From: Nitrospira sp.
GTDB lineage: Bacteria > Nitrospirota > Thermodesulfovibrionia > Thermodesulfovibrionales > Dissulfurispiraceae
DNA: 64,000 nucleotides
Reading direction: 5' to 3'
NCBI GenBank assembly: GCA_002634385.1
Contig: NSJL01000012.1
Location: 1-64,000 of the forward strand
The translations under genes and the position numbers were made by a program. Position 1 is the stretch's first letter; each line of letters opens with the position of its first letter. Shown in pieces: positions 47,223-62,282 of the stretch. The notes beneath the pieces were generated by a model that saw nothing but the letters and a program-made list of their open reading frames with translations, searched no databases and was not told where the DNA came from.

Positions 47223-50200
47223 ATGAGCAAGCTTGAAGACCTGAAACCCAACGCATCAGTTCGAGGCATCTTGCCAAATAGCCTTGTTACTGTTGTCAAT
47301 GTACAGTGGTTTGGCTCAGAGGCCCTTGAACTCACTTACAAGACCCCTACAGGGACAGTTGCGAATGAGCTGCTTTACCGCCACGATGAAATGCGGATAG
47401 AGGTCGTGGAACTGGGGCGTCCTTGGAGCTTCGATGGTGACGGAAAGCTCTTTCGTCTCGTTTCTGAGGCAGATCGCATTCGCCTTGCTCATCTCTTCGA
47501 TCCTGTATTGGCAGTTCACACCTCAGTGGTCGAACCGTTGCCGCATCAGATCACAGCAGTGTATGAATCAATGCTGCCACGCCAGCCGCTCCGCTTTCTG
47601 TTAGCAGACGACCCCGGCGCAGGCAAGACGATCATGGCGGGGCTCCTGATAAAGGAGTTGATTGTGCGTGGTGATCTCCAACGTTGTCTTGTGGTTTGTC
47701 CCGGCAGTCTTGCTGAACAGTGGCAGGATGAACTTTACCGACGCTTTCATCTCCCCTTTGAGATTCTTACTAATGATAAGCTGGAGGCCGCCCGAACAGG
47801 AAATTGGTTTCTGGAGACAAACCTTGTAATAGCAAGACTGGATAAGTTATCACGTAATGAAGATGTTCAGGAGAAGCTCAAAGTCTCGGATTGCCGATGG
47901 GATCTCATCGTCTGTGACGAAGCTCACAAGATGTCAGCAACCTTCTTTGGCGGGGAAATCAAATACACGAAGCGGTATCGGCTTGGGCAACTTCTTTCTA
48001 CGCTTACGAGACATTTTTTGCTCATGACAGCCACACCGCACAATGGCAAAGAGGAGGATTTCCAGCTTTTTATGGCGCTTCTGGACGGGGACCGCTTCGA
48101 GGGGCGTTTTCGTGATGAGGTCCATGCCGTTGATGTATCCGACCTGATGCGCAGAATGGTAAAAGAGAGTCTTTTGAAGTTCGATGCCAGACCGCTATTT
48201 CCAGAACGAATAGCCTATACGGTTCCCTATAAGCTGTCGGATGCCGAAGCGAGACTTTATAAAGAGGTTACCGATTATGTGCGCGATGAATTTAATCGTG
48301 CAGAAGCTCTCCAGAATGACAAGCGCGCCGGCACCGTCGGATTTGCACTCACAATCCTGCAGCGACGTCTGGCCTCATCGCCGGAGGCTATTTATCAGTC
48401 CCTGCGCCGTCGCCGTGAACGTCTTGAAAGCAGGCTGCGTGAGTTGGAACTGTTACAGCGCGGAGCAGGAATTGCACAGCCGTTTGCCGTTGCCGGACCG
48501 CAACTCGATGCAGAGGACCTTGAGGACTTGGAGGATGCGCCTGATAGCGAGGTTGAAAATACAGAAGAGGAGATTCTCGATCAAGCCACGGCTGCCCGTA
48601 CTATTGTCGAATTGAAGGTCGAGATTGAAACTCTCAAGCGGCTGGAAGAATTAGCCCTGGGAGTTCGCCGCAGTGGTGAGGACAAGAAATGGCGGGAGCT
48701 TGCGAGTCTCCTGGGTGAGATATTTACTCCCGGAGCTATTGCAGACTGTGTGGCAGAGCCGCAACCTGTTTACGGCGCCGGTGCTATTCCTCCGCCTGTA
48801 CCGTCACTGCGCCAGAAGATAGTCATCTTTACTGAGCACCGCGATACTTTGAAGTATCTTGAGAATCGTATAAGCACATTGCTGGGACGCAAAGAGACGG
48901 TTGTTGTGATCCATGGGGGCATGGGACGGGAAGAACGCCTGAAGATGCAGGAAGCGTTCAAACATGACCCCGAAGTTCAGGTGCTCCTCGCTACTGATGC
49001 CGCCGGCGAGGGTATCAACCTGCAGCGCGCTCACCTCATGGTGAATTATGATCTCCCCTGGAATCCCAATCGCATTGAGCAACGCTTCGGGCGTATTCAC
49101 CGAATTGGACAGACAGAGGTCTGTCACCTTTGGAACCTCATCGCTGAGGAGACCCGTGAGGGTGATGTGTACCGCACACTGCTTGATAAGCTCGAACAGG
49201 CCCGCCAGGCGCTCGGCGGGCAGGTCTTCGATGTTCTGGGCAAGCTTCAGTTTGAAGGGAAGCAATTACGCAAGCTCTTGATAGAGGCAATACGTTACGG
49301 CGAGCAGCCGGACGTGAGAGCACGGTTGAACCAGGAAGTGGCCCATGCCTTTGACCGCAGCCGCATACAGGATTTGCTCGAAGAACATGCGCTTGCGCCC
49401 GATACCATGGATGCAAGCCGTGTTTGCCGAATTCGGGAGGAAATGGAGCGCGCAGAAGCACGTCGGCTTCAGCCTCATTATATCGAATCCTTCTTTCTGG
49501 AGGCCTTTCGGATATTAGGCGGAACGGTTAAGCAGCGCGAGCCTAGACGTTATGAAGTCTCAAACGTACCTGCTCCAATTCGTACCAGAGATCGCTCGAT
49601 AGGCATCGGTGAACCGGTGCTGAGGCGGTACGAACGCATTGCCTTCGAAAAAGCACTTGTTGCTCCGCAAGGACAGCCCCTTGCTGCCTTTATCTGCCCC
49701 GGACACCCGCTGCTTGATACCTCCATCGATCTGATACTGGAGCGGCATCGGGACCTCCTGAGACGGGGAGCAGTACTAGTGGATGAGCGTGACGGTGGGG
49801 TCGAAACGCGCGTTATTTTCTATCTTGAGCATACCATACAGGATGCCGGCTTTACGCGTACCGGTGAGCGGCGCATTATTTCAAAACGTATGCTCTATGT
49901 GGAACTCGATGCTGTCGGAAACGCACGACATCTTAACTACGCCCCGTATCTCGATTACCGTCCCCTCACAACTGAGGAGCCCGGGGCTGAACAATTGCTT
50001 GCCCTGCCTGAGTTCTCGTGGATCACCCACGGATTTGAGCAAATAGCGCAAGAGCACGCAGTCACCCATGTTGTCCCTGAGCACTTGTCAGAGGTGCGTC
50101 AAAGGAAGCTGAGACTCATTGAGAAAACCGAGGCGGCGGTCAAGGACAGGCTTACCAAGGAGATCAGCTATTGGGATCACCGGGCAGAAGAGTTAAGAAT

Positions 50201-50801
50201 CCAGGAGCAGGCAGGCAGGCTTAACAACAGATTGAATTCGGGAGAGGCCCGCAAGCGCGCTGATACCCTTCAGGCAAGACTCGAAAAACGCATGGAGGAA
50301 CTAAAACTGGAGAGCCAAATATCGCCTCTTCCTCCTGTCGTCCTGGGCGGCTTATTGGTTGTACCGAAAGGCTTGCTCGCCAAGCTGACCGGACGACCTA
50401 TTCCCTCAACTGCAACAGCAGCAGATACCCAAGCTGCAGCAGCGCGTGCAAGGGAAATCATTATGGAAACCGAACGCCGCCTTGGCTTTGATCCCATGGA
50501 TCGTGAAACTGAAAAGTTAGGCTACGATATCGAAAGTCATATACCGGGCACGGGGCAGTTGCGTTTCATCGAAGTGAAAGGGCGTGTCTCAGGCGCTTCG
50601 ACTATTACCGTTACCCGCAACGAGATCCTCTATTCGCTCAACAAGCCCGAAGATTTCATTCTGGCTATTGTCGAATTCATGGGCGACACCCATCGGGTCC
50701 ACTATATCAGGCAGCCCTTTCACCGCGAGCCGGACTTTGGGGTAACGAGTGTGAACTACGATTTTAGTGAGCTCCTGGCTAAGGCAGAGAAACCTGTGTA
50801 A
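47223..50801 (+). CDS. SNF2-type helicase with DUF3883 C-terminal domain (defence island)
   Basis: 1192 residues. Superfamily 2 ATPase: Walker A in DDPGAGKTIMAGLLI near residue 130, DEAHK near 231, TATPHNGK, and the second RecA domain with ATDAAGEGINLQRA and IEQRFGRIHRIGQT near 590-640. A long helical part follows. The C terminus (about 1085-1165) matches DUF3883 (LGYDIESHIPGTGQLRFIEV, then KGR), whose D...E-x-K spacing recalls PD-(D/E)xK nucleases. It is likely to translocate on DNA and act with the methylase and DUF499 ATPase in restricting phage or plasmid DNA. It begins an all-plus-strand island behind an AT-rich 80-base leader. Confidence 0.9.
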   Translation: MSKLEDLKPNASVRGILPNSLVTVVNVQWFGSEALELTYKTPTGTVANELLYRHDEMRIEVVELGRPWSFDGDGKLFRLVSEADRIRLAHLFDPVLAVHTSVVEPLPHQITAVYESMLPRQPLRFLLADDPGAGKTIMAGLLIKELIVRGDLQRCLVVCPGSLAEQWQDELYRRFHLPFEILTNDKLEAARTGNWFLETNLVIARLDKLSRNEDVQEKLKVSDCRWDLIVCDEAHKMSATFFGGEIKYTKRYRLGQLLSTLTRHFLLMTATPHNGKEEDFQLFMALLDGDRFEGRFRDEVHAVDVSDLMRRMVKESLLKFDARPLFPERIAYTVPYKLSDAEARLYKEVTDYVRDEFNRAEALQNDKRAGTVGFALTILQRRLASSPEAIYQSLRRRRERLESRLRELELLQRGAGIAQPFAVAGPQLDAEDLEDLEDAPDSEVENTEEEILDQATAARTIVELKVEIETLKRLEELALGVRRSGEDKKWRELASLLGEIFTPGAIADCVAEPQPVYGAGAIPPPVPSLRQKIVIFTEHRDTLKYLENRISTLLGRKETVVVIHGGMGREERLKMQEAFKHDPEVQVLLATDAAGEGINLQRAHLMVNYDLPWNPNRIEQRFGRIHRIGQTEVCHLWNLIAEETREGDVYRTLLDKLEQARQALGGQVFDVLGKLQFEGKQLRKLLIEAIRYGEQPDVRARLNQEVAHAFDRSRIQDLLEEHALAPDTMDASRVCRIREEMERAEARRLQPHYIESFFLEAFRILGGTVKQREPRRYEVSNVPAPIRTRDRSIGIGEPVLRRYERIAFEKALVAPQGQPLAAFICPGHPLLDTSIDLILERHRDLLRRGAVLVDERDGGVETRVIFYLEHTIQDAGFTRTGERRIISKRMLYVELDAVGNARHLNYAPYLDYRPLTTEEPGAEQLLALPEFSWITHGFEQIAQEHAVTHVVPEHLSEVRQRKLRLIEKTEAAVKDRLTKEISYWDHRAEELRIQEQAGRLNNRLNSGEARKRADTLQARLEKRMEELKLESQISPLPPVVLGGLLVVPKGLLAKLTGRPIPSTATAADTQAAAARAREIIMETERRLGFDPMDRETEKLGYDIESHIPGTGQLRFIEVKGRVSGASTITVTRNEILYSLNKPEDFILAIVEFMGDTHRVHYIRQPFHREPDFGVTSVNYDFSELLAKAEKPV

Positions 50802-50806
50802 ACAAT

Positions 50807-50843
50807 ATCGATCATGGTATACTACTACTGAAGTATTATCGAT
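50807..50843 (+). promoter_or_regulatory. Inverted-repeat region before the AbrB/PIN pair, candidate operator
   Basis: ATCGAT (50807-50812) and ATCGAT (50838-50843) flank GTATACT and AAGTATT, giving a loose symmetry just before the antitoxin ribosome site. Such a site fits autoregulation by an AbrB-type antitoxin, but the symmetry is imperfect. Confidence 0.3.
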
Positions 50844-50854
50844 GGAGGTATGGT

Positions 50855-51058
50855 ATGAAAGCAACGATCTCTCCGAAATATCAAGTGGTTATACCACGTG
50901 AGATCAGGGAGTCCCTGCAACTGAAGCCGGGGGAAAAGGTCGAGTTCCTCCAATATGAGAACAGGATTGAGATGATTCCGGTCAGGGACATAAAGAAGAT
51001 GCGAGGATATCTCAAGGGAATAGATACAACGATTGAGAGAGAAAAGGACAGAGTATGA
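50855..51058 (+). CDS. AbrB/SpoVT-type antitoxin (VapB-like)
   Basis: 67 residues, swapped-hairpin AbrB fold: MKATISPKYQVVIPREIRES, then LKPGEKVEFLQYENRIEMIP. The tail (residues 45-67) should bind and block the PIN toxin encoded next, whose ATG overlaps this gene's end (ATGA overlap). GGAGGTATGGT precedes the ATG. It lies 53 bases after the helicase gene on the same strand. Confidence 0.88.
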   Translation: MKATISPKYQVVIPREIRESLQLKPGEKVEFLQYENRIEMIPVRDIKKMRGYLKGIDTTIEREKDRV

Positions 51059-51429
51059 ACCTCGTCGATTCCTGCGGCTGGCTTGAGTATCTTGCTGATG
51101 GGCCGAATGCGGACTTTTTTGCCGGGCCGCTTGAAAACCAGGAGAAACTGCTTGTTCCGACCATCTGCATTACCGAAGTTTTTAAGCGTGTGCTTCAGCA
51201 ACGAGGCGAAGATGCGGCGCTCCACGCAGCGGCGCTCATGCAGCAGGGAAATGTCGTTGCTTTAGACAGCGCTATAGCGGTAGAAGCAGCGAGACTCGGG
51301 CATAAGCATACTATTCCTTTGGCTGACGGTATTATTTTGGCAACCGCATATATGCATAAAGCCGTCATCTGGACACAGGATGCTGATTTCAAAGGCTTAA
51401 AGGACGTTGAATACAAGGAAAAGCAGTAG
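51055..51429 (+). CDS. PIN-domain RNase toxin (VapC-like)
   Basis: 124 residues. The four acidic positions of a PIN nuclease are visible: Asp5 in NLVDSCGW, Glu near 41 in ICITEVFKR, Asp near 94 in PLADGIILA and Asp near 112 in TQDADF. VapC-type enzymes cut tRNA or rRNA when freed from the antitoxin. The start overlaps the antitoxin gene. In this place it may act as an addiction module that stabilises the island. Confidence 0.9.
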   Translation: MNLVDSCGWLEYLADGPNADFFAGPLENQEKLLVPTICITEVFKRVLQQRGEDAALHAAALMQQGNVVALDSAIAVEAARLGHKHTIPLADGIILATAYMHKAVIWTQDADFKGLKDVEYKEKQ

Positions 51430-51442
51430 GCGGCGAAAGCAC

Positions 51443-51709
51443 ATGGAGAAGACCTATCTGAGAAAGGAACTGAGAGAGCTCTTAAAGAGCATGGACTTTG
51501 TCAGTAATAAGCTTCTTGTCGATGAAAAGGCTGCCGGCAAGGACTTCCAGATATATTTCAAGATCTATCAACAGCTTGGCCTTGCATGGGAGTATCTCGG
51601 ACAGCAGTGCAAGTACTGGGATGGGTACAGAAAGACAAGAGAAAAGCATGAAGTTTGCAAAATTTGCGGAAAAGTGAAAACTCTTAAGAACAAGAAAAAT
51701 GTCAAATGA
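51443..51709 (+). CDS. Small basic protein with C-terminal CxxC, unknown
   Basis: 88 residues, mostly helical (TYLRKELRELLKSMDFVSNK, IYFKIYQQLGLAWEYLGQQC), ending in KICGKVKTLKNKK. The C-x2-C pair with an earlier cysteine could form a small zinc site. It lies 13 bases after the toxin gene and 6 before the GHKL gene, so it is part of the transcript. A longer TTG start at 51407 is possible. I know no family; it might be an adaptor for the next module. Confidence 0.6.
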   Translation: MEKTYLRKELRELLKSMDFVSNKLLVDEKAAGKDFQIYFKIYQQLGLAWEYLGQQCKYWDGYRKTREKHEVCKICGKVKTLKNKKNVK

Positions 51710-51715
51710 GAAACT

Positions 51716-52591
51716 ATGATTCACTATCTGCCGACAATAAAGAGCCAGAAGGATGGTTTCGATCGCCTAGCCGAGCTTGCTGTTGAGACAAAGGAGATAT
51801 TCAACAACGTGGTAGAGCTCGATTTTTCCCGTTGCGGCTTTTTCGATGCGAATATGGCGGCTCCGCTGGCGGCTGTGCTGACAAAGCTTTCAGCTGAGCG
51901 CTTCAACAGAATTGAGATCGTCAATATCCCGACTGCTATCAAGAATATCCTGTGTAAGAATCGCTTCCTTATTCCCCACGGGTATGACCCTGTCGTTGAT
52001 GCGAATCAGACAGCGTTGCCGTTTATTCGCCTTCAGTTGAAAGACGAGAACCGCTTTTCAGACTATTTGAACAAGCACCTCAACGGCAAAGGGATTCCCC
52101 GTATGACCAGGGCGATGGGCAAAATGTTCAGGCAAAGTGTTTTTGAAGTATTCCAGAATGTAGTCATTCATTCCGGCTCTGAGCTGGGAGTATTCATATG
52201 TGGACAGTTCTATCCGCAATTGCAGCGCCTCGACCTGACTATTGCGGATACCGGTGTTGGTATACGGACCAATGTCCGGCGCTTTCTTCGGAACAATAAG
52301 CTGTCTTCTATAGCAGCGCTTAAATGGGCATTACAGGAGGGTAACACGACCAAGACCGGGACTCAGCCGGGAGGTGTCGGACTGAAGTTCCTGAAGGATT
52401 TTATTGAATTGAACGGCGGCAAGATTCAGATAGCATCAAGATATGGCTTTTATGAGTATAATAGAGTGGCCGAGGTGTTTTCCAAACTCGCCGCTGACTT
52501 CACAGGTACAGCGGTTAATCTCGAAATTAATACAGGCGACACTCACACCTATAAATTGAGCTCGGAAATTTCATCAAAAGATATTTTTTGA
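51716..52591 (+). CDS. STAS-like plus GHKL ATPase protein
   Basis: 291 residues. Residues about 1-80 resemble a STAS-like fold (VVELDFSRCGFFDANMAAPL). Residues about 130-270 form a GHKL (histidine-kinase-like) ATPase: N-box VFEVFQNVVIHS near 142, G1 box TIADTGVGI near 176, and G2 box PGGVGLKFLKDFIELNGG near 216. No phosphoacceptor histidine domain is present, so it resembles the anti-sigma/anti-anti-sigma switch kinases (RsbW/SpoIIAB style) more than a sensor kinase. The next two genes, DUF4325 and PIN, are tightly linked. A role controlling the PIN nuclease is my inference. Confidence 0.8.
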   Translation: MIHYLPTIKSQKDGFDRLAELAVETKEIFNNVVELDFSRCGFFDANMAAPLAAVLTKLSAERFNRIEIVNIPTAIKNILCKNRFLIPHGYDPVVDANQTALPFIRLQLKDENRFSDYLNKHLNGKGIPRMTRAMGKMFRQSVFEVFQNVVIHSGSELGVFICGQFYPQLQRLDLTIADTGVGIRTNVRRFLRNNKLSSIAALKWALQEGNTTKTGTQPGGVGLKFLKDFIELNGGKIQIASRYGFYEYNRVAEVFSKLAADFTGTAVNLEINTGDTHTYKLSSEISSKDIF

Positions 52592-52610
52592 CATACAGGG
52601 AGGACTCTAT

Positions 52611-52967
52611 ATGAGAGATACAATAAAAGTGAGTGTTTATGATATAGTCGGCGGACCTCTCTGCGTATCTGCTGAGGACGGCCAGAAGGTTTATGAGAGG
52701 ATAGCGCCGCTCCTGGAGCAAGGGAACAAGGTGGCTTTATCTTTTGCTAAAGTTGAGACCCTCATCTCTGCCTTCCTCAACGCGGCCGTAGGGCAGTTGT
52801 ATGGAAAGTTCACTGAAGATCAGGTGCGCGCACTTCTTACTGTAGAGGATATGGATCAGGAAGACATGTCTTTACTCAAGCGGGTTGTGGATAACGCAAA
52901 GGCTTATTTCAAGAGTCCGAAGGAATTTGATCAGGCCTGGAAGGAGGAAGTGGGCGATGAAGAATAA
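52611..52967 (+). CDS. DUF4325 STAS-like protein
   Basis: 118 residues matching the STAS-like DUF4325 pattern: a beta start (IKVSVYDIVGGPLCVSAEDG), VALSFAKVETLISAFLNAAV, and a helical end. DUF4325 proteins often sit next to GHKL ATPases and are thought to be their partners or substrates; the FAKVETLISAF stretch corresponds to the region where STAS antagonists carry a phosphorylatable Ser/Thr. GGGAGG precedes the ATG, 19 bases after the GHKL gene. Its end overlaps the PIN gene by 11 bases. Confidence 0.8.
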   Translation: MRDTIKVSVYDIVGGPLCVSAEDGQKVYERIAPLLEQGNKVALSFAKVETLISAFLNAAVGQLYGKFTEDQVRALLTVEDMDQEDMSLLKRVVDNAKAYFKSPKEFDQAWKEEVGDEE

Positions 52968-53508
52968 GGCGCACGATCTGGCAACCTACACTTTTTCGAG
53001 CGGCGAACAGGTGCTCCTTGATACAAATGTATGGCTGTATCTCTTTCCAGCTCCATCGGGAAAAAGTTCCAGCTTTGTGACGAGCTATTCTTCTGCACTT
53101 AAGAAAATGTTGACAGATGGAGCGTATTTGGCTTTGGATGCTCTTGTCCTCAGCGAATATCTGAACTGCTACTGTCGTATTGAATGGAAAGCACTGTATA
53201 AAACAAAATATAAAGAATTCAAAGACTTTCGGCAGTCGTCCGACTATGCTTCAGTCGGCACCGGTGCGGCTCTGTTTGCCCGGAAAATCCTCAAACTGTG
53301 CACATGCCACGATCATCCCTTTTCATCGAGCGATGTTGCCAAAGTGCTTACCGATTTTGAAGCCGGGACCTGTGACTTCAATGATGGTCTTTTTGTTGAG
53401 ACTTGCCGTCAGAACGGATGGAAATTTGTGACGAATGATGGTGATTTCACCGATGGGGGGATAGAGGTGCTCACGTCAAATCCTAAACTGCTAAGTGCGT
53501 GCCCGTGA
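52957..53508 (+). CDS. PIN-domain nuclease linked to the GHKL/STAS pair
   Basis: 183 residues. PIN acidic residues: Asp near 22 in VLLDTNVWLYLF, Glu near 67 in VLSEYLNCY, Asp near 148 in DFNDGLFVETC and Asp near 163 in VTNDGDF. It is larger than VapC-type toxins and has no DNA-binding antitoxin gene; the gene directly before it is DUF4325, whose end it overlaps. AAGGAGG lies 9 bases before the ATG at 52957. RNA cleavage under control of the STAS/GHKL pair is a hypothesis. Confidence 0.82.
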   Translation: MKNKAHDLATYTFSSGEQVLLDTNVWLYLFPAPSGKSSSFVTSYSSALKKMLTDGAYLALDALVLSEYLNCYCRIEWKALYKTKYKEFKDFRQSSDYASVGTGAALFARKILKLCTCHDHPFSSSDVAKVLTDFEAGTCDFNDGLFVETCRQNGWKFVTNDGDFTDGGIEVLTSNPKLLSACP

Positions 53509-53577
53509 CGCAGCCGATCTGCAATAAGCATAGCAAAACTGATTTTCCTCTGTTTGTCTTAAATGGGAGATTAAGCC

Positions 53578-54978
53578 ATGAAACTCAATAAAATCGAAAT
53601 TACCAATTTTCGTTGTTTTGAGAATCTGGCGATCTCTTTGCAGCCGGATATCAATGTATTTGTCGGCATTAATGGAGCGGGGAAATCGACTATCCTCGAT
53701 GCCATTGCTATTGCCTTATGGGACGTCGTGGCAGCAAATGGCGGAGGGGGAAAGCGGCAGAGGAGTTCTCAAGAGGTTGATCTCCGCCCTGCTGACATCC
53801 ATATCCCCAATAGCGCACAGGACGCACTGACAGGGCGGCGGGATTTTGTTCAGATAAGCGCTGTTGCGAGCAATTTTTATGAATTGCCCAGTTTTTCGGC
53901 GACAACCCCACAGGGCGAGGCCCGTTTCATTGAATGGCAGGACAATATCCAGTTTAGACCACCAAGAGATTTTGACTACACGCCAAGTCAGGCAAACCGT
54001 GTCGCCGAGGTATATGACTATTTTGCTGCCCTCTGGCAACAATTAAGGACTTCCGATGAGAAGGCTCTTATCCCGCTGCCAGTTGTAGCCTACTATCGGG
54101 CTCATCGCAGACTATCCAAGATGCCTGAACTGGGCGATATCTTCAGCCTCAATATAGACCGCAAGGGAGCATATCACGGTGCCCTGAATGCGGGCGCAAA
54201 TTTTAGGGCTATGTGTCAGTGGTTCTATCTACGTGAAAATCAGGAACTCAGGGAGAAGGTTCAGCATAAGAACGACCCGGCTTTTGAACTTGCAGATCTT
54301 AAGGCTGCCCGCAGGGCACTGACTCTGATGCTGGAAAATGTTGAACGCATTTTCTTCGATAATAATCCGCCAAGCCTCAAGGTCGCGATGAATGAGCCTT
54401 CCGGACAGTCAGCCGTGCTTGAACTGGAGCAGCTCAGTGATGGTTATCGCAATCTTCTGGCTGTAGTGCTCGATTTTGCGCGTAGGCTCGCTCAGGCCAA
54501 CCCTGGATGGGAGAACCCTTTGGAAGCTCCAGGCATATTGCTGATTGACGAGATTGAATTGCACCTTCATCCCGGATGGCAACAGACCGTAATTCCAAAT
54601 CTGCAGAAAGTATTTCCGAACACCCAGCTTATCATTGCAACTCACAGCCCGCAAGTATTGACTACGGTCAAGCGGGAGCATATTCATATGCTGGCCTCAG
54701 ATCATACATTTGAACAGATGCCGCACGATGTGGGAACTTTTGGCGCTGAAAGCTCACGTGTATTGCAGGAGATATTCGGAGTCCATGCCCGACCAAGAAG
54801 CATTGAAACATCTGAAAAGCTTAAAACATATCTTAGCCTGGTAGAGGCACAACAGCAGGACAGTGAGAACGGCAGGGCACTGCGACAGGAACTCGAAAAG
54901 GCGCTGGGCAGTAGTGATCCTGATCTTGTCATGGCTGATATCAGGATCAGCCAGATAGAAGCGCTTCGGACCAAATGA
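53578..54978 (+). CDS. ptuA: Septu-like ABC/AAA ATPase PtuA
   Basis: 466 residues, RecF/OLD-like ATPase: Walker A FVGINGAGKSTILDAI near residue 30, signature LEQLSDGYRNLLAV near 280, Walker B ILLIDEIELHLHPGWQ near 321, and a D-loop/H-loop in IATHSPQVL. No TOPRIM nuclease follows, which fits PtuA and not OLD. In Septu, PtuA forms a complex with an HNH nuclease that is held inactive until infection. The stop overlaps the next start (ATGA), as in paired operons. The gene is AT-richer than the island backbone. Confidence 0.85.
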   Translation: MKLNKIEITNFRCFENLAISLQPDINVFVGINGAGKSTILDAIAIALWDVVAANGGGGKRQRSSQEVDLRPADIHIPNSAQDALTGRRDFVQISAVASNFYELPSFSATTPQGEARFIEWQDNIQFRPPRDFDYTPSQANRVAEVYDYFAALWQQLRTSDEKALIPLPVVAYYRAHRRLSKMPELGDIFSLNIDRKGAYHGALNAGANFRAMCQWFYLRENQELREKVQHKNDPAFELADLKAARRALTLMLENVERIFFDNNPPSLKVAMNEPSGQSAVLELEQLSDGYRNLLAVVLDFARRLAQANPGWENPLEAPGILLIDEIELHLHPGWQQTVIPNLQKVFPNTQLIIATHSPQVLTTVKREHIHMLASDHTFEQMPHDVGTFGAESSRVLQEIFGVHARPRSIETSEKLKTYLSLVEAQQQDSENGRALRQELEKALGSSDPDLVMADIRISQIEALRTK

Positions 54979-55613
54979 AGACAATAGTTAAGTCAACACT
55001 GTCACCCTGTTTGGCCTCACAGCCTGTCGCGCAGGAGTGGTATGATTTTATGCGCACACAGTGCCATGCCGAGGTCGGTGACAATCTTCGCCAAGAGCAG
55101 CAGTTTCTATGCTGTTATTGTGAATCTGAGATTGGAGAAGACGATAGCCACATTGAGCACATGGTTCCTCGAAGTATCCACAATAATCTCACTTACGAAT
55201 ATTCTAATCTCGCGGCATCCTGCAACGGCGGTGCCGTTGACCATTGCGGACACTTCAAGGATGATAATCATAGAAATCCGGGGTACCGATACGACGCATC
55301 TAAATTTTGCCCTCCTCATGACGCTAATACATGCCGTTTATTCAGTTATCTGTCTGATGGCGATGTGATCCCTGCCCAAGGTCTTAGTCAGCAGGATAGG
55401 GATAAGGCAGAGTATATGATAGGGTATCTGGGACTTACCTGTTCCCGTCTTTCCGGACGGCGGCATAGTCATGCAAAAAATCTGATTCAAACACTTGGTT
55501 CTAATCCAGACGCAGAGCTGGTGCAATGGGCGATGGATTATTACCTTACCCCGAGCTCTGATGGCAAGCTAAAGGCTTTTATATCACTTTCAAGGACTTT
55601 ATTAGCACAATGA
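54975..55613 (+). CDS. ptuB: Septu-like HNH endonuclease PtuB (TIGR02646-type)
   Basis: 212 residues. The HNH motif region reads CCYCESEIGEDDSHIEHMVP, then NLTYEYSNLAASCNGG, with cysteine pairs to hold zinc and His residues for catalysis. The same family supplies the effector of Septu and of some retrons. Its start overlaps the ATPase gene and its stop overlaps the methylase start, so all three should be translated together. Cleavage target (DNA or RNA) cannot be read from sequence. Confidence 0.85.
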   Translation: MKTIVKSTLSPCLASQPVAQEWYDFMRTQCHAEVGDNLRQEQQFLCCYCESEIGEDDSHIEHMVPRSIHNNLTYEYSNLAASCNGGAVDHCGHFKDDNHRNPGYRYDASKFCPPHDANTCRLFSYLSDGDVIPAQGLSQQDRDKAEYMIGYLGLTCSRLSGRRHSHAKNLIQTLGSNPDAELVQWAMDYYLTPSSDGKLKAFISLSRTLLAQ

Positions 55614-58411
55614 TAACTCCTATCAAAAAGCTCATCGAAGTCGCGTTGCCTCTTGAGGCCATAAACAAAGAAGCTGCGCGCGAGAAGTCAATCAGGCACG
55701 GGCATCCGAGCACGCTGCATCTGTGGTGGGCGCGGCGGCCACTTGCTGCGGCACGGGCGGTTATCTTTGCCCAGATGGTGGATGATCCGTCGTCTTTGCC
55801 GGAGGAGTTTCCGACCGAGTCGGAGCAGAACGTTGAGCGGCAGAGGCTTTTCAGACTCATCGAAGAATTGGTGAAGTGGGAAAACACGACAAACGAGCGT
55901 CTGCTTGAACTGGCAAGGGCAGAAATTCGCAAGTCCTGGGCGCGGTGGTGCAGGCAGTCCGGTGAAGACCCTAACAAACTTCCACTTTTTCACGACCCCT
56001 TTGCCGGCGGAGGAGCCTTGCCGCTTGAAGCTCAGCGTCTGGGGTTTGAGTCTCATGCTTCAGACCTGAACCCGGTTGCGGTTATGATCAACAAAGCCAT
56101 GATCGAAATACCGCCGAAATTTGCAGGCAAACCGCCGGTGAACCCGAAGTCGCGCAAAGGGCTTGTAAAGGGAGGCTACAGGGGCGCTGCCGGGCTTGCC
56201 GAAGATGTGCGGTATTACGGCGAATGGATGCGCGACGAGGCAGAGAAGCGGATCGGGCATCTCTACCCTCAGGCAACTTTGCTTGATGGAAGGAAGGCAA
56301 CCGTTATCGCCTGGCTCTGGGCGCGCACCGTCGAAAGCCCAAACCCCGCCTATCGCGGTTGCATGGTACCGCTGGTGTCATCCTTCTGGCTCTCGACCAA
56401 GAAAGGCAAAGAGACTTGGGTTGAGCCGGTAGTGGAGGGGAAGACCTATAGGTTTGAAGTGAGGGCAGGAAAGGCCACTAACGAGAAGTCGATTGATGCA
56501 GGCACGAAACTTGGACGTGGAGCCAATTTTCGCTGTGTGCTCTCAGGCTCGCCGATTGCCCCCGATTATATACGGAGCGAAGCTCAAGCTGGACGTATGA
56601 ATGCACGACTTATGGCAATTGTAGGTGAGGGAGATAGAGGGCGAGTTTATTTGGCGCCTACGGAAGAACATGAGTCAATTGCGAGGAATGCAACGCCAGC
56701 ATGGAAACCTGATCAAATGGTTACAACACCGTGTCACGATGTGGACAGATTACCAATGTACGGTATGTACACATGGGGGGATGCGTTTACCTCTCGTCAG
56801 CTCGTTGCTTTGACGACCTTTTCCGAACTTGTGGCTGAGGCGAGAGAGAAGGTGAAGGAAGATGCTCGGAAGGTAGGTCTCTCTGCTGACAATAAACCCC
56901 TCCGCGACGGCGGCACCGGCGCAACAGCTTACGCTGAAGCGGTGAGTGTGTATCTGGCTTTTGCGGTGGATAAGTGCAGCGACTATTGGAGTTCCATATG
57001 CAGTTGGCACAGTTCAGGGGAGAAAATGCGAAACACCTTTGGAAGGCAAGCTATCCCTATGGTTTGGGATTATGCTGAGAGCAACCCCTTTTGTGCTTCA
57101 ACAGGAAACTGGACAGCTATGATTGACTGGGTATGGAAATCGTTGCTGACTCTTCCAATACAAGTGCAAGGCAGTGCGATTCAGCAGGACGCTACGCAGA
57201 TAGGCAGACTTCAAAATAAAGTTATCTCAACTGACCCTCCTTATTACGACAACATTGGCTATGCCGATCTCTCCGATTTCTTCTATGTCTGGCTGCGGCG
57301 TAGTCTTCAGCCCGTTTATCCCGATTTATTCAGCACACTGCTTGTCCCTAAATCTGAAGAGCTTGTTGCCACGCCATATCGCCACGGCAGTAAAGGCAAG
57401 GCAGAAAAGTTTTTTCTTGAAGGAATGACACGAGCCATTCACTCTATGGCCGAAACATCACATCAGGCTTTTCCTGTATCAATCTATTACGCCTTCAAAC
57501 AATCAGAAAGAGACCACGAGGGGACGTCATCAACTGGATGGGAAACATTCCTGGAGGCTGTTATAAAAGCTGGCTTCAGTCTGACGGGAACCTGGCCGAT
57601 GCATACTGAATTAGGTAACCGCATGATTGGCTTTGGCACCAACGCCCTTGCTTCTTCCATCGTCCTCGTCTGCCGTCCACGCCACGAACAGGCCCCTGTT
57701 GCGACGCGCCGGGATTTTTTGAACGCCCTCAAGCGCGAGCTTCCGCCTGCCCTGCGTCTCATGCAGGAAGGCAACGTTGCTCCGGTAGACCTTGCTCAGG
57801 CGAGCATTGGTCCGGGCATGGCTATCTTTTCACGTTACACGAAGATTCTTGAGGCCGACGGTTCGGCTATGCGTGTGCGGATGGCGCTGGCGCTCATCAA
57901 CCAGACCCTTGATGAGGTGCTGGCCGAACAGGAGAGCGACTTTGAGCCGGACACCCGCTGGGCTGTGGCCTGGTTCGATCAGTTCGCTTTTAACGACGGC
58001 CCGTTTGGCGAGGCTGAGGTCCTCTGCACTGCAAAAAACACGTCGGTAAACGGCTTGCAGGGTGCTGGGATTGTAGTATCAAAGGCGGGAAAGGTGCGGC
58101 TTATCCGGACAGACGAACTGTCCAGGGATTGGGACCCGACTAAGGACAATCGCTTTACTGTCTGGGAGGCGACGCACTATCTCATCCGGACACTGAAGGA
58201 GAGCGAAGCAACGGCTGCGGTTTTATTATCGAAAATCGGTGAGGCAGACGCGGCGCGCGAACTGGCATATCGTCTATACAATATTTGCGAGCGGCGCAAA
58301 AGAGCGCAGGAGGCGCAGGACTATAACGCGCTGGTGCAAAGCTGGCCTGAAATCGCCCGGCTGGCAAGGGAAGGCAGCCGGGCGCAGGAAAAAGAGCAGG
58401 AACTGTTTTAG
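55610..58411 (+). CDS. DUF1156 DNA methyltransferase (defence island)
   Basis: 933 residues. The N terminus VALPLEAINKEAAREKSIRH, then HPSTLHLWWARRPL, is the DUF1156 hallmark. SAM-binding motif I is DPFAGGGALPLEA near residue 130 and the catalytic motif is STDPPYYDNIGYADLSDFFY near 540, so it is an N6-adenine or N4-cytosine methylase. The motif order with a long insert between suggests an alpha-like class. It should mark host DNA so that the helicase and ATPase spare it. Its start overlaps ptuB by four bases, an intimate link with a different defence module. Confidence 0.9.
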   Translation: MITPIKKLIEVALPLEAINKEAAREKSIRHGHPSTLHLWWARRPLAAARAVIFAQMVDDPSSLPEEFPTESEQNVERQRLFRLIEELVKWENTTNERLLELARAEIRKSWARWCRQSGEDPNKLPLFHDPFAGGGALPLEAQRLGFESHASDLNPVAVMINKAMIEIPPKFAGKPPVNPKSRKGLVKGGYRGAAGLAEDVRYYGEWMRDEAEKRIGHLYPQATLLDGRKATVIAWLWARTVESPNPAYRGCMVPLVSSFWLSTKKGKETWVEPVVEGKTYRFEVRAGKATNEKSIDAGTKLGRGANFRCVLSGSPIAPDYIRSEAQAGRMNARLMAIVGEGDRGRVYLAPTEEHESIARNATPAWKPDQMVTTPCHDVDRLPMYGMYTWGDAFTSRQLVALTTFSELVAEAREKVKEDARKVGLSADNKPLRDGGTGATAYAEAVSVYLAFAVDKCSDYWSSICSWHSSGEKMRNTFGRQAIPMVWDYAESNPFCASTGNWTAMIDWVWKSLLTLPIQVQGSAIQQDATQIGRLQNKVISTDPPYYDNIGYADLSDFFYVWLRRSLQPVYPDLFSTLLVPKSEELVATPYRHGSKGKAEKFFLEGMTRAIHSMAETSHQAFPVSIYYAFKQSERDHEGTSSTGWETFLEAVIKAGFSLTGTWPMHTELGNRMIGFGTNALASSIVLVCRPRHEQAPVATRRDFLNALKRELPPALRLMQEGNVAPVDLAQASIGPGMAIFSRYTKILEADGSAMRVRMALALINQTLDEVLAEQESDFEPDTRWAVAWFDQFAFNDGPFGEAEVLCTAKNTSVNGLQGAGIVVSKAGKVRLIRTDELSRDWDPTKDNRFTVWEATHYLIRTLKESEATAAVLLSKIGEADAARELAYRLYNICERRKRAQEAQDYNALVQSWPEIARLAREGSRAQEKEQELF

Positions 58412-58937: not shown

Positions 58938-61900
58938 ATGGCTATAACCAATTATGAACGTGTCGGCAAGGCGCTTACTATTCTGAAGGATGGTCTGCGC
59001 CCCTTTGTCGAACGTGAACTAAAGGCACAGTATCAGCAGAACTGGTTTGAAGAGGTGAAGACTTCTCTCTCACCTCAACAACTGAGCTTTGCCGGGACTA
59101 AAGAAGATCCTTTTGGCGACATCGCCACAGTGCTCACGGTGATCTGGAACCAGTGGAACATGGTATTCCGCAAGACTTTAGGCCAGGCGGAGCGCACACT
59201 TGTAAGTGAGCTGCGTGATATCCGCAACAGATGGGCGCATCAGACCCCTTTCAGCACTGACGACGCCTATCGCGCGCTCGACAGCGCTGCGCGGCTGCTG
59301 ACAGCCGTTTCAGCGTCGGAGGCGGACAGCATCGAGAAGATGAAAAGGGAGCTGCTCCGCGTCAAGTACGACGAGGAAGTGCGGACTGAAAAACGCAAGG
59401 CTGCCGGCACTGCGATTGAAAGTCAGGTTACCGGCAGCCTTAAGCCGTGGCGGGAGGTGATGACTCCTCACAAGGACGTTGCAAGCGGTCGCTATCAGCA
59501 GGCAGAGTTTGCCGCTGACTTGTGGCAGGTACATCTGGGTGAAGGCTCAGAGGAATATCGCGATCCTGTTGAATTCTTTAGACGCACCTTTCTGACCGAC
59601 AGTCTGAAGCAACTGCTGAGCGATGCTATGCAACGCTTGAGTGGGCAGGGCGGTGATCCTGTTGTCCAACTCCAGACCAACTTCGGCGGAGGCAAGACCC
59701 ATTCGATGCTGGCCTTGTATCATTTGTTTTCCGGAGCCAGGCCGGGTGAACTGATAGGTATTGACAGCGTAATGCACGATGCCGGGGTCACTACTTTGCC
59801 GACAGTCAAGCGAGTGGTGCTGGTAGGGAATAAGATATCTCCCGGCAATCCAGTAACAAGAAAAGACGGAACCATTGTAAGGACCTTGTGGGGTGAACTT
59901 GCTTGGCAGCTTGGAGGCAAAAAGGCATTTGAGCGCATCAAGGCTGATGATGAAAATGCGACAAGCCCCGGGGATGCGTTGAGAGAGCTGTTTAATGAAT
60001 ACGGGCCTTGTCTGATACTGATCGACGAATGGGTGGCGTATGCCCGGCAGCTCCATGACCAGAGCGACCTTCCGGCGGGTAGTTTCGAAACGCACTTTAC
60101 CTTTGCGCAGGCCTTGACTGAATCTGCAAAACCGGCACAATGCATGATAGTCATCAGTTTGCCAGCCTCCGATACATCAGGTTCACCGCATGCTCAGGCT
60201 GACGATGTGGAGGTCGGCGGTGAGCGCGGACGTGCTGCTCTTGATCGTTTGCGAAATGCCATTGGCCGTGTAGAGGCCTCATGGCGGCCTGCGAGCGCTG
60301 AGGAGAGCTTTGAAATCGTTAGACGACGTTTGTTTGAACCGCTCGTCGAGCAACAGCAATACGTGGGACGAGATACTGTTGCAAAGGCGTTCTCCGACCT
60401 TTATCGCTCTCAGCAGCAGGAGTTTCCTCCCGAATGCCGGGATTCAGATTACGAAAAACGGCTCAAGTCAGCCTATCCGATTCATCCCGAAGTGTTCGAC
60501 CGGCTTTACACAGACTGGTCAACCCTTGTAAAGTTCCAGCGCACACGCGGCGTGCTGCGATTGATGGCATCCGTTATTCACAGTTTATGGGAGAAAGGCG
60601 ACCGGAATCCGTTAATTCTTCCGTCAAATATACCGATTGACGACCCACGGGTTCAATCCGAGCTGTTACGCTATCTCTCCGACAACTGGGCTCCTGTCAT
60701 TGAGAAAGATGTTGACGGCCCTAACTCCTTACCGCTGCGTATAGATGGGGATGTGCCGAATCTTGGCAAATTTGCAGCCTGCCGCCGTGTTGCGCGAACA
60801 ATTTATCTCGGCTCTGCGCCGACTGCAAAAGCGGCCAACCGCGGGCTGGAAGACCGGCGTATCAAGCTTGGCTGTGTCATGCCTGGAGAGTCTCCGGCGC
60901 TCTTCGGCGATGCGCTGAGGAGACTGAGTACTGCAGCAACCTATCTTTATCAGGATGCCGCTCGTTATTGGTATTCTACCCAGCCGACGGTCACAAAACT
61001 TGCAGAAGACCGGGCCCAACAATTGAAAGCAGACCCTGACTCAGTAGTACAGGAGCTGGATAAGCGGATTCGCGCTGACTTGCGCAAGCAAGGTGACTTC
61101 AGTCGAGTCCACCCGTTGCCGCTGTCGAGCCAGGATGTGCCGGACGATCTTGATGCCCGGCTGGTAGTGCTTCGAATCGAATATCCATACAACAAGGAAA
61201 AGAACAGTCCTGCTGAAGTGGCGGCAAAGGCGCTCCTTGAGACTCGTGGTACAGCGCCTCGCCTCTATCGCAATACCCTTGTCTTTCTTGCTGTAGACAA
61301 GACCCGGCTACAGGACCTCGATGAAGCAGTACGCCGTTATTTAGCATGGCAGTCGATCATGGATGAAAAAGATATCCTCGACCTTTCTCCCCATCAGGTG
61401 CGGCAGGCAGAAATCCAAAAGGGGAGCGCTGACAGTGCAGTGACTGCCCGGATACCTGAGGCGTACCAATGGTTGTTAGTACCCATTCAGCAGACACCCC
61501 AGAGCGCTATTGAGTGGCAGACATTCCGGCTGACGGGTCAGGACTCCCTTGCGATAAGGGCCAGCAAGAAGCTACGGAATGACGAGTTGCTGGTGACCGG
61601 CTTTGCAGCATCTCGGTTGCGACTGGAGCTCGACCAGATACCTCTCTGGCGCGGCGACCATGTTGCCGTCAAGCAGCTTGTTGAGGACTTTGCCCGTTAT
61701 TTGTATCTGCCCCGGCTCAGGGAACCGGCTGTGCTGCTTTATGCAATCCATGATGGCCTGGCTTTGCTTTCCTGGACCCAGGACTCCTTTGCCTATGCGG
61801 ATAGTTTTGACGAAGCAACAGGCCGCTATCGCGGACTGCGGTGCTGCCAGGGAATGAATATCTCTGAGGACAATATATCCGGGTTGCTGGTAAGACCGGC

Positions 61901-62282
61901 TGCAGCGCTCAAGCAGAGGGAGTCCGAGACAGTCAATGTTCCGACCGGTACCACAGGAACAACCGAAGGTGCTGAAGGCAGTGCCGGAGTTTTGCCGGGC
62001 ATGGGAACGCACGGAACAAGAGAAGGTCCTGTTACAGAGGCGGCAAAGCCCAAACGCTTCCACGGCAGCGTCAGTCTCGACCCCGCCCGCGTGGGACGAG
62101 ATGCCAGCAGGATTGCGGAAGAAGTGATTTCACATTTGTCAGCCTTAGTCGGCTCTGAAGTGAAGGTCACCCTCGAAATCGAGGCACAGATTCCACAGGG
62201 CGCCCCGGACAACGTCGTGAGAACCGTAACAGAGAACAGCCGTACCCTGAAGTTTACTACCCAAGGCTTCGAGAAAGAGTAA
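58938..62282 (+). CDS. DUF499 ATPase with N-terminal Swt1-type HEPN domain
   Basis: 1114 residues. The first 130 form a HEPN-like helical domain with RNRWAH (Arg96 to His101), the Rx4H motif of HEPN RNases. The DUF499 AAA-type ATPase follows: Walker A TNFGGGKTHSMLALYHL near residue 248, Walker B CLILIDEWVAYARQL near 357. A Gly/Thr-rich linker at about 1000-1035 leads to a small C-terminal domain (HGSVSLDPARVGRDASRIAE). DUF499 with a DUF1156 methylase and a SNF2/DUF3883 helicase is a recurring defence trio. It is the last gene of the island. Confidence 0.9.
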   Translation: MAITNYERVGKALTILKDGLRPFVERELKAQYQQNWFEEVKTSLSPQQLSFAGTKEDPFGDIATVLTVIWNQWNMVFRKTLGQAERTLVSELRDIRNRWAHQTPFSTDDAYRALDSAARLLTAVSASEADSIEKMKRELLRVKYDEEVRTEKRKAAGTAIESQVTGSLKPWREVMTPHKDVASGRYQQAEFAADLWQVHLGEGSEEYRDPVEFFRRTFLTDSLKQLLSDAMQRLSGQGGDPVVQLQTNFGGGKTHSMLALYHLFSGARPGELIGIDSVMHDAGVTTLPTVKRVVLVGNKISPGNPVTRKDGTIVRTLWGELAWQLGGKKAFERIKADDENATSPGDALRELFNEYGPCLILIDEWVAYARQLHDQSDLPAGSFETHFTFAQALTESAKPAQCMIVISLPASDTSGSPHAQADDVEVGGERGRAALDRLRNAIGRVEASWRPASAEESFEIVRRRLFEPLVEQQQYVGRDTVAKAFSDLYRSQQQEFPPECRDSDYEKRLKSAYPIHPEVFDRLYTDWSTLVKFQRTRGVLRLMASVIHSLWEKGDRNPLILPSNIPIDDPRVQSELLRYLSDNWAPVIEKDVDGPNSLPLRIDGDVPNLGKFAACRRVARTIYLGSAPTAKAANRGLEDRRIKLGCVMPGESPALFGDALRRLSTAATYLYQDAARYWYSTQPTVTKLAEDRAQQLKADPDSVVQELDKRIRADLRKQGDFSRVHPLPLSSQDVPDDLDARLVVLRIEYPYNKEKNSPAEVAAKALLETRGTAPRLYRNTLVFLAVDKTRLQDLDEAVRRYLAWQSIMDEKDILDLSPHQVRQAEIQKGSADSAVTARIPEAYQWLLVPIQQTPQSAIEWQTFRLTGQDSLAIRASKKLRNDELLVTGFAASRLRLELDQIPLWRGDHVAVKQLVEDFARYLYLPRLREPAVLLYAIHDGLALLSWTQDSFAYADSFDEATGRYRGLRCCQGMNISEDNISGLLVRPAAALKQRESETVNVPTGTTGTTEGAEGSAGVLPGMGTHGTREGPVTEAAKPKRFHGSVSLDPARVGRDASRIAEEVISHLSALVGSEVKVTLEIEAQIPQGAPDNVVRTVTENSRTLKFTTQGFEKE

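Follow-up and report, generated by a model that had tools for sequence, protein, structure and literature searches.

The closest described relative of the locus reported here is the VapKSC operon, named by Chambers et al. (EMBO J, June 2026; PMC13373217), in which vapK encodes a STAS-GHKL kinase resembling CapK, vapS a STAS protein whose C-terminal region is short, and vapC a PIN nuclease of the VapC kind. In that study, 289 instances of the operon were found, 36% of them no more than 10 kb away from a defence gene, and the crystal structure of the VapS2VapC2 complex was solved (PDB 9Z7O). The Escherichia VapC protein is toxic, and the D28A substitution abolishes this toxicity; VapS binds and neutralises VapC in a manner that needs the VapS C-terminus, while the VapS S48E variant loses VapC binding and fails to neutralise the toxin. 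Protection of about 2 logs against phage Bas42 requires VapC D28, VapS S48 and VapK F54 (PMC13373217). It should be noted that VapK is insoluble and that the direct phosphorylation of VapS by VapK, as well as the activation of VapK by single-stranded DNA (ssDNA), were deduced by these authors from the behavior of the S48E, S48A and F54A mutants.

VapKSC shares parts of its make-up with several other systems. Like CapK + CapS (PMC13373217), it combines a STAS-GHKL kinase with a STAS substrate that carries a conserved serine, but an HTH is present at the N-terminus of CapK and a wHTH that binds DNA in CapS, and this pair controls transcription and has no PIN gene. A GHKL kinase and a STAS protein with a phosphorylatable Ser/Thr are also found in SpoIIAB/SpoIIAA and RsbW/RsbV; there, the kinase keeps hold of a sigma factor, whereas in VapKSC the target is a PIN RNase and it is the STAS protein that keeps hold of it. 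With VapBC, it has the PIN RNase toxin in common; the VapKSC antitoxin, in contrast, belongs to the STAS proteins, has no DNA-binding domain and is released by phosphorylation, and the kinase is encoded in the operon.

The window, by which we mean the entire 64,000-nucleotide stretch of Nitrospira sp. DNA that was analyzed, carries three co-directional genes on its plus strand that can be aligned with this scheme. vapK (51716..52591; 291 aa, P0001) encodes a putative STAS-like N-terminal domain and a GHKL ATPase/kinase domain, the latter with a PF02518 (HATPase_c) match of 26.4 bits that lies at the Pfam cut-off; its GHKL motifs (E144/N148/H152, G180, G220/G222, G264-T265) are invariant in an alignment of 29 VapK homologues. 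After a 19-base gap follows vapS (52611..52967; 118 aa, P0002), a DUF4325/STAS antitoxin with a C-terminal extension (PF14213, 56.8 bits), which overlaps vapC by 11 bases (52957..52967, ATGAAGAATAA), an arrangement also found in three loci (L003, L006, L015) in which the trio is likewise embedded in an Hma operon. vapC (52957..53508; 183 aa, P0003, ATG start) encodes the PIN-domain RNase toxin (PF01850, 32.1 bits), and its acidic residues D22, E67, D143, D161 and D163 are invariant in the alignment of 27 VapC homologues. In these respects the initial annotation was accurate: the gap, the overlap and all coordinates of the three packed reading frames are exactly as it had given them, Pfam supports its assignment of a GHKL ATPase, a DUF4325 protein and a 183-residue PIN nuclease, and the complete set of PIN acids on which it remarked is conserved. 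Its statement that the locus lacks a DNA-binding antitoxin holds for the trio, but an unrelated pair of an AbrB/MazE-type VapB and a VapC (50855-51429) lies immediately upstream. A scan for promoters and terminators was uninformative, with 11 promoter-like sites found versus 10.7 expected by chance.

The relationship to VapKSC is borne out by profile searches against the whole PDB, in which the DUF4325 profile (A5) had VapS (9z7o_A, E=5.5e-26) as its sole match, and the PIN profile (A4) matched solely VapC (9z7o_C, E=4.3e-15). When the profile alignments with the 9z7o chains are read residue by residue, with the numbering of 9z7o_A assumed to be offset by an 18-residue tag counted by hand, the Escherichia VapS phosphosite S48 corresponds to S53 of the window protein (codon 52767..52769, plus strand), and the catalytic D28 of VapC to D22 (codon 53020..53022, plus strand). 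The first of these columns is S or T in 29/29 homologues, and the second is D in all 27. An AlphaFold model places S53 as the first residue of the helix formed by residues 53-61. Phosphosites of STAS proteins are expected at the start of a helix, as in SpoIIAA. The C-terminal extension of VapS is present as a helix (residues 103-114) modelled with low confidence. Since a Foldseek search with the VapS model returned nothing significant (best E 0.09, unspecific; RsbV at E 0.41), the assignment of this protein to the STAS family rests on its homology to the solved VapS. The AlphaFold model of VapK (pLDDT 91) has a C-terminal domain that resembles SpoIIAB (Foldseek 1l0o_A, E=9e-5, TM-score by target 0.65), while residues 2-81 are modelled as an alpha/beta domain that is compatible with STAS and has no Pfam or separate fold match. 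For F54, the ssDNA-contact residue of VapK, the column of F42 is a candidate counterpart; it is occupied by F or W in 27/29 homologues, and by one H and one Q in the others. Rows from plasmid and phage records were excluded from the input alignments of the structure models.

The window trio is thus a well-supported new member of the VapKSC family. It agrees with the described operon in gene order, domains, the S/T phosphosite, the catalytic acids of VapC and the C-terminal extension of VapS, and for its VapS and VapC, homology to the proteins of the solved structure can be detected. It differs from that operon through its nesting between the genes hmaA and hmaB and its diverged sequence, pairwise identity to the Escherichia VapKSC proteins being low, and its ssDNA-contact aromatic is a presumptive one. 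The initial annotation knew of no named system with this set of genes; this claim of novelty has to be given up, as VapKSC was named in June 2026 with a structure, toxicity assays and phage protection (PMC13373217), and this publication, together with the PDB profile matches to 9Z7O, rules out an undescribed system. Domain content also rules out a plain VapBC module, in that the partner of the PIN gene is a DUF4325 protein in which a Pfam scan found no HTH or AbrB family, and a CapK + CapS pair, since no HTH family was found in VapK by the same type of scan, and neither the scan nor the length of the 118-aa VapS leaves room for a wHTH.

The linkage of the GHKL, DUF4325 and PIN genes is not due to chance, because the same order is conserved in about 28 loci, located in genomes of several phyla, on one Deinococcus plasmid and on about 15 distinct phage/prophage contigs. 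Profile searches across genomes had been proposed as a check in the initial annotation, which could have failed on scattered genes or on PIN homologues without their active-site residues; co-occurrence is conserved, and these residues are present in the homologues. With the PIN protein as the query, four relatives were found on genome contigs of bacteria and archaea, from Elusimicrobia (L003), Rhodothermales (L004), Pelodictyon (L005) and Nitrospirae (L006); in each, the PIN gene is directly preceded by a DUF4325 gene, and this in turn by a GHKL gene. Among 296 genomes of the phylum to which the window belongs, five more trios, one of them (L015) in an Hma operon, and one truncated orphan PIN gene were found. 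The trio is also present on a Deinococcus gobiensis plasmid (P5), on a human-gut phage contig, and in the Streptococcus prophage Javan172, where it resides between repressor and integrase. When IMG/VR was searched with the PIN profile, GHKL and DUF4325 genes were found directly upstream in 10/10 loci (one of them is divided between two pieces of one contig, L065, which is a contig end, and L088); with the DUF4325 profile, every VapK-VapS pair of this subfamily was followed by a PIN gene, and the remaining matches were phage proteins without GHKL or PIN partners. Among the positions are sites typical of phage cargo, namely between repressor and integrase (L042) and after endolysin genes (L061, L081). 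A search of plasmids, phages and viral contigs with a VapS query, directed at the Escherichia VapK, returned no close relative. PF14213 alone is too broad a guide, since its genomic matches include many fusions of GHKL with DUF4325 and isolated DUF4325 proteins of phages, with no accompanying PIN gene.

Two further observations concern DUF4325 proteins outside the trio. In two loci (L021, G000:C2:283-1500, at a contig end; L057, L057:4608-5791), a GHKL gene is paired with a short DUF4325 gene without a PIN gene; these DUF4325 proteins are 100-103 aa in length, the C-terminal extension is largely missing from them, and their target may be something other than a PIN protein. On five viral contigs (L071-L074, L083), DUF4325 occurs without an adjacent GHKL or PIN gene, either alone or within a longer protein (L073), and such partnerless domains are possibly decoy antitoxins directed against VapKSC.

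For the window copy, the mechanism with the best support is that published for Escherichia, carried over on the basis of homology. At rest, VapS would be bound to a VapC dimer with its C-terminal helix positioned over the active site. Infection or DNA damage would generate ssDNA that switches the VapK kinase on; active VapK would then phosphorylate VapS on S53 and VapC would be released, so that the free toxin would cut RNA and thereby bring growth and phage production to a halt. The initial annotation had envisioned GHKL/STAS control of an RNase in place of a sigma factor, an outline that agrees with the published work (PMC13373217). Unlike in classical partner switching, it is the STAS protein of VapKSC that retains the effector, and the GHKL kinase brings about its release. 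The reverse arrangement, an undescribed partner switch in which the GHKL protein sequesters the PIN nuclease in the manner of RsbW or SpoIIAB and the STAS protein serves as the release factor, could draw on the match of the GHKL domain to SpoIIAB and on the conserved S/T of the STAS protein; we consider it very improbable, as VapS binds and neutralises VapC in the solved homologue (PMC13373217), and one locus (L004) has retained an intact vapC although the kinase domain is deleted. Natural broken copies of the operon fit what is expected if VapS were the antitoxin and VapK the trigger: in L004, vapS and vapC are both intact, in L006 and L080 vapC is internally deleted or frameshifted while vapK and vapS are kept, L020 is an orphan vapC without its catalytic N-terminus, and no locus among those examined has an intact vapC with vapS lost. 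These broken copies are few and derive partly from metagenome assemblies, and sequencing errors could mimic some of them.

The decay of the module via loss of vapC, its frequent presence on prophages and its occurrence on one plasmid would also suit a module for plasmid or prophage maintenance (addiction), for which phage protection would be incidental. This explanation appears unlikely to us: plain addiction has no need of a kinase release switch, and the roughly 2 logs of protection that the homologue gives against Bas42 need the VapS phosphosite and the residue of the VapK ssDNA site (PMC13373217). A role of the trio as a CapK + CapS-like transcriptional controller of the Hma operon is also very improbable. 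The kinase and STAS proteins belong to the same family, CapK + CapS precede immune operons (PMC13373217), and the module resides inside the Hma operon; yet, there is no wHTH in the 118-aa VapS and no HTH at the N-terminus of VapK, and the module is found downstream of hmaA instead of ahead of the operon. We regard it as very probable that the window trio is a VapKSC module that is carried in the hmaA-hmaB gap and operates through the published kinase-release mechanism; we infer that this copy is functional and co-expressed with Hma.

The initial annotation had placed the trio in a defence island, as PADLOC and Pfam confirm, and overlooked its nesting in an Hma operon; overall, its outline of the mechanism and the defence context stand, while the novelty does not. 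All genes of this operon are located on the plus strand. hmaA (47223..50801; PADLOC HmaA, 1713 bits) encodes a DrmD/RapA-like helicase with a NOV_C domain and is followed by the VapB (AbrB/MazE type) and VapC (PIN) pair (50855..51429; PF04014 and PF01850), a separate, classical toxin-antitoxin cargo in the same slot. Directly upstream of vapK resides an 88-aa ORF (51443..51709; P0004) with a C-terminal CxxC motif (CKICGK). VapKSC is succeeded by type I Septu genes, PtuA and PtuB (53578..55613; PADLOC PtuA, 549 bits; PtuB, 151 bits), then by hmaB (55610..58411; PADLOC HmaB, 1424 bits), a DUF1156 methyltransferase, and hmaC (58938..62282; PADLOC HmaC, 1173 bits), a DUF499 ATPase. Hma is often found together with Septu according to the authors of PADLOC (PMC8565338), and it was reclassified in 2026 as a DUF499-centred, BREX-related system (PMC12839542). 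At the vapC stop, the stretch GTG-ACG-CAG-CCG-ATC-TGC-AAT-AAG (window 53505-53528) resembles the hmaB start of L006 (VTQPICNK vs VTKPIRKK), a possible scar of the insertion of PtuAB between vapC and hmaB. Near the N-terminus of HmaC (window 58938-59400), the motif RNRWAH is similar to R-x4-H of HEPN RNases, in line with the fusion of HEPN to DUF499 that has been reported from BREX-related systems.

VapKSC immediately precedes hmaB in four other loci (L003, L004, L006, L015), with hmaA upstream of it in the three whose available sequence includes hmaA; in L003 and L015, the hmaA/vapK and vapC/hmaB junctions are ATGA overlaps. In 11 additional loci (nine Hma operons and two divergent relatives), the stretch before hmaB could be read as well, and all 11 carry other genes there: MqsR-MqsA-SecB (L112), GmrSD-type nucleases (L113, L117, L118), a Schlafen/AlbA_2 protein with a PDC-M48B protein (L114), an IrrE-like protein (L111), DUF6884 (L116, whose contig does not include hmaA), or genes without a match (L115, L120, L121, L122). 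L114 (G000:C60:52000-70000) is a second complete Hma operon of the genome to which the window belongs, with a different cargo. Wherever an Hma locus was read with hmaA and hmaB both present, one gene or more lies between them.

Cargo and backbone have different histories, as the VapK proteins of the four Hma-embedded loci tested form one group (93/90) but their HmaA proteins do not: in the HmaA tree, L015 groups with an operon that carries GmrSD, and L006 groups with L114 (100/100 in each case), and forcing the HmaA proteins of the four loci together was rejected (p-AU 2e-6). A vapB remnant in L006 (L006:5774-5900) retains the first codons and residues 46-64, at 68% identity to the window, the rest of VapBC being deleted, and a 70% identical copy of the 88-aa ORF is found upstream of vapK (L006:6166-6468). 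As this remnant lies where the window has VapBC, the VapBC-ORF-VapKSC block is common to two different backbones. The hmaA-hmaB interval (window 50802-55609; L003, L006, L015, L111-L118, L120) looks like an exchangeable cargo slot, used by VapKSC, VapBC, Septu, MqsRA-SecB, GmrSD-type nucleases, Schlafen + PDC-M48B, IrrE-like and DUF6884 proteins.

Nucleases recruited within BREX and BREX-related operons have been described as a suicidal second layer, i.e., as backup effectors (PMC12839542), and the principle is therefore known; the nuclease module inside the Hma operon is akin to these auxiliary effectors of BREX/DUF499-centred systems. The words 'STAS', 'VapC' and 'GHKL' are absent from the main text of that paper, and VapKSC as cargo of an Hma operon was found neither there nor in the text of PMC13373217, whose Dataset EV3 may list such cases. 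The window VapKSC would form a second, growth-arresting layer behind the restriction-like Hma system, beside Septu and VapBC. We offer as a tentative reading, somewhat more doubtful than not, that VapKSC serves the DUF499 BREX-related Hma operon as a functional fail-safe, that the gap is an exchangeable slot for backup effectors into which one VapKSC lineage was plugged in different Hma backbones, and that ssDNA arising from the action or failure of Hma could trigger it.

The survey of phages and prophages shows VapKSC to be a common viral cargo, with many natural variants to study. The window locus links this very recently described switch to a restriction-like operon that is widespread and in whose gap backup effectors appear to be exchanged, and it raises the testable question of whether a DNA-targeting system triggers an RNase suicide switch encoded in its own operon.
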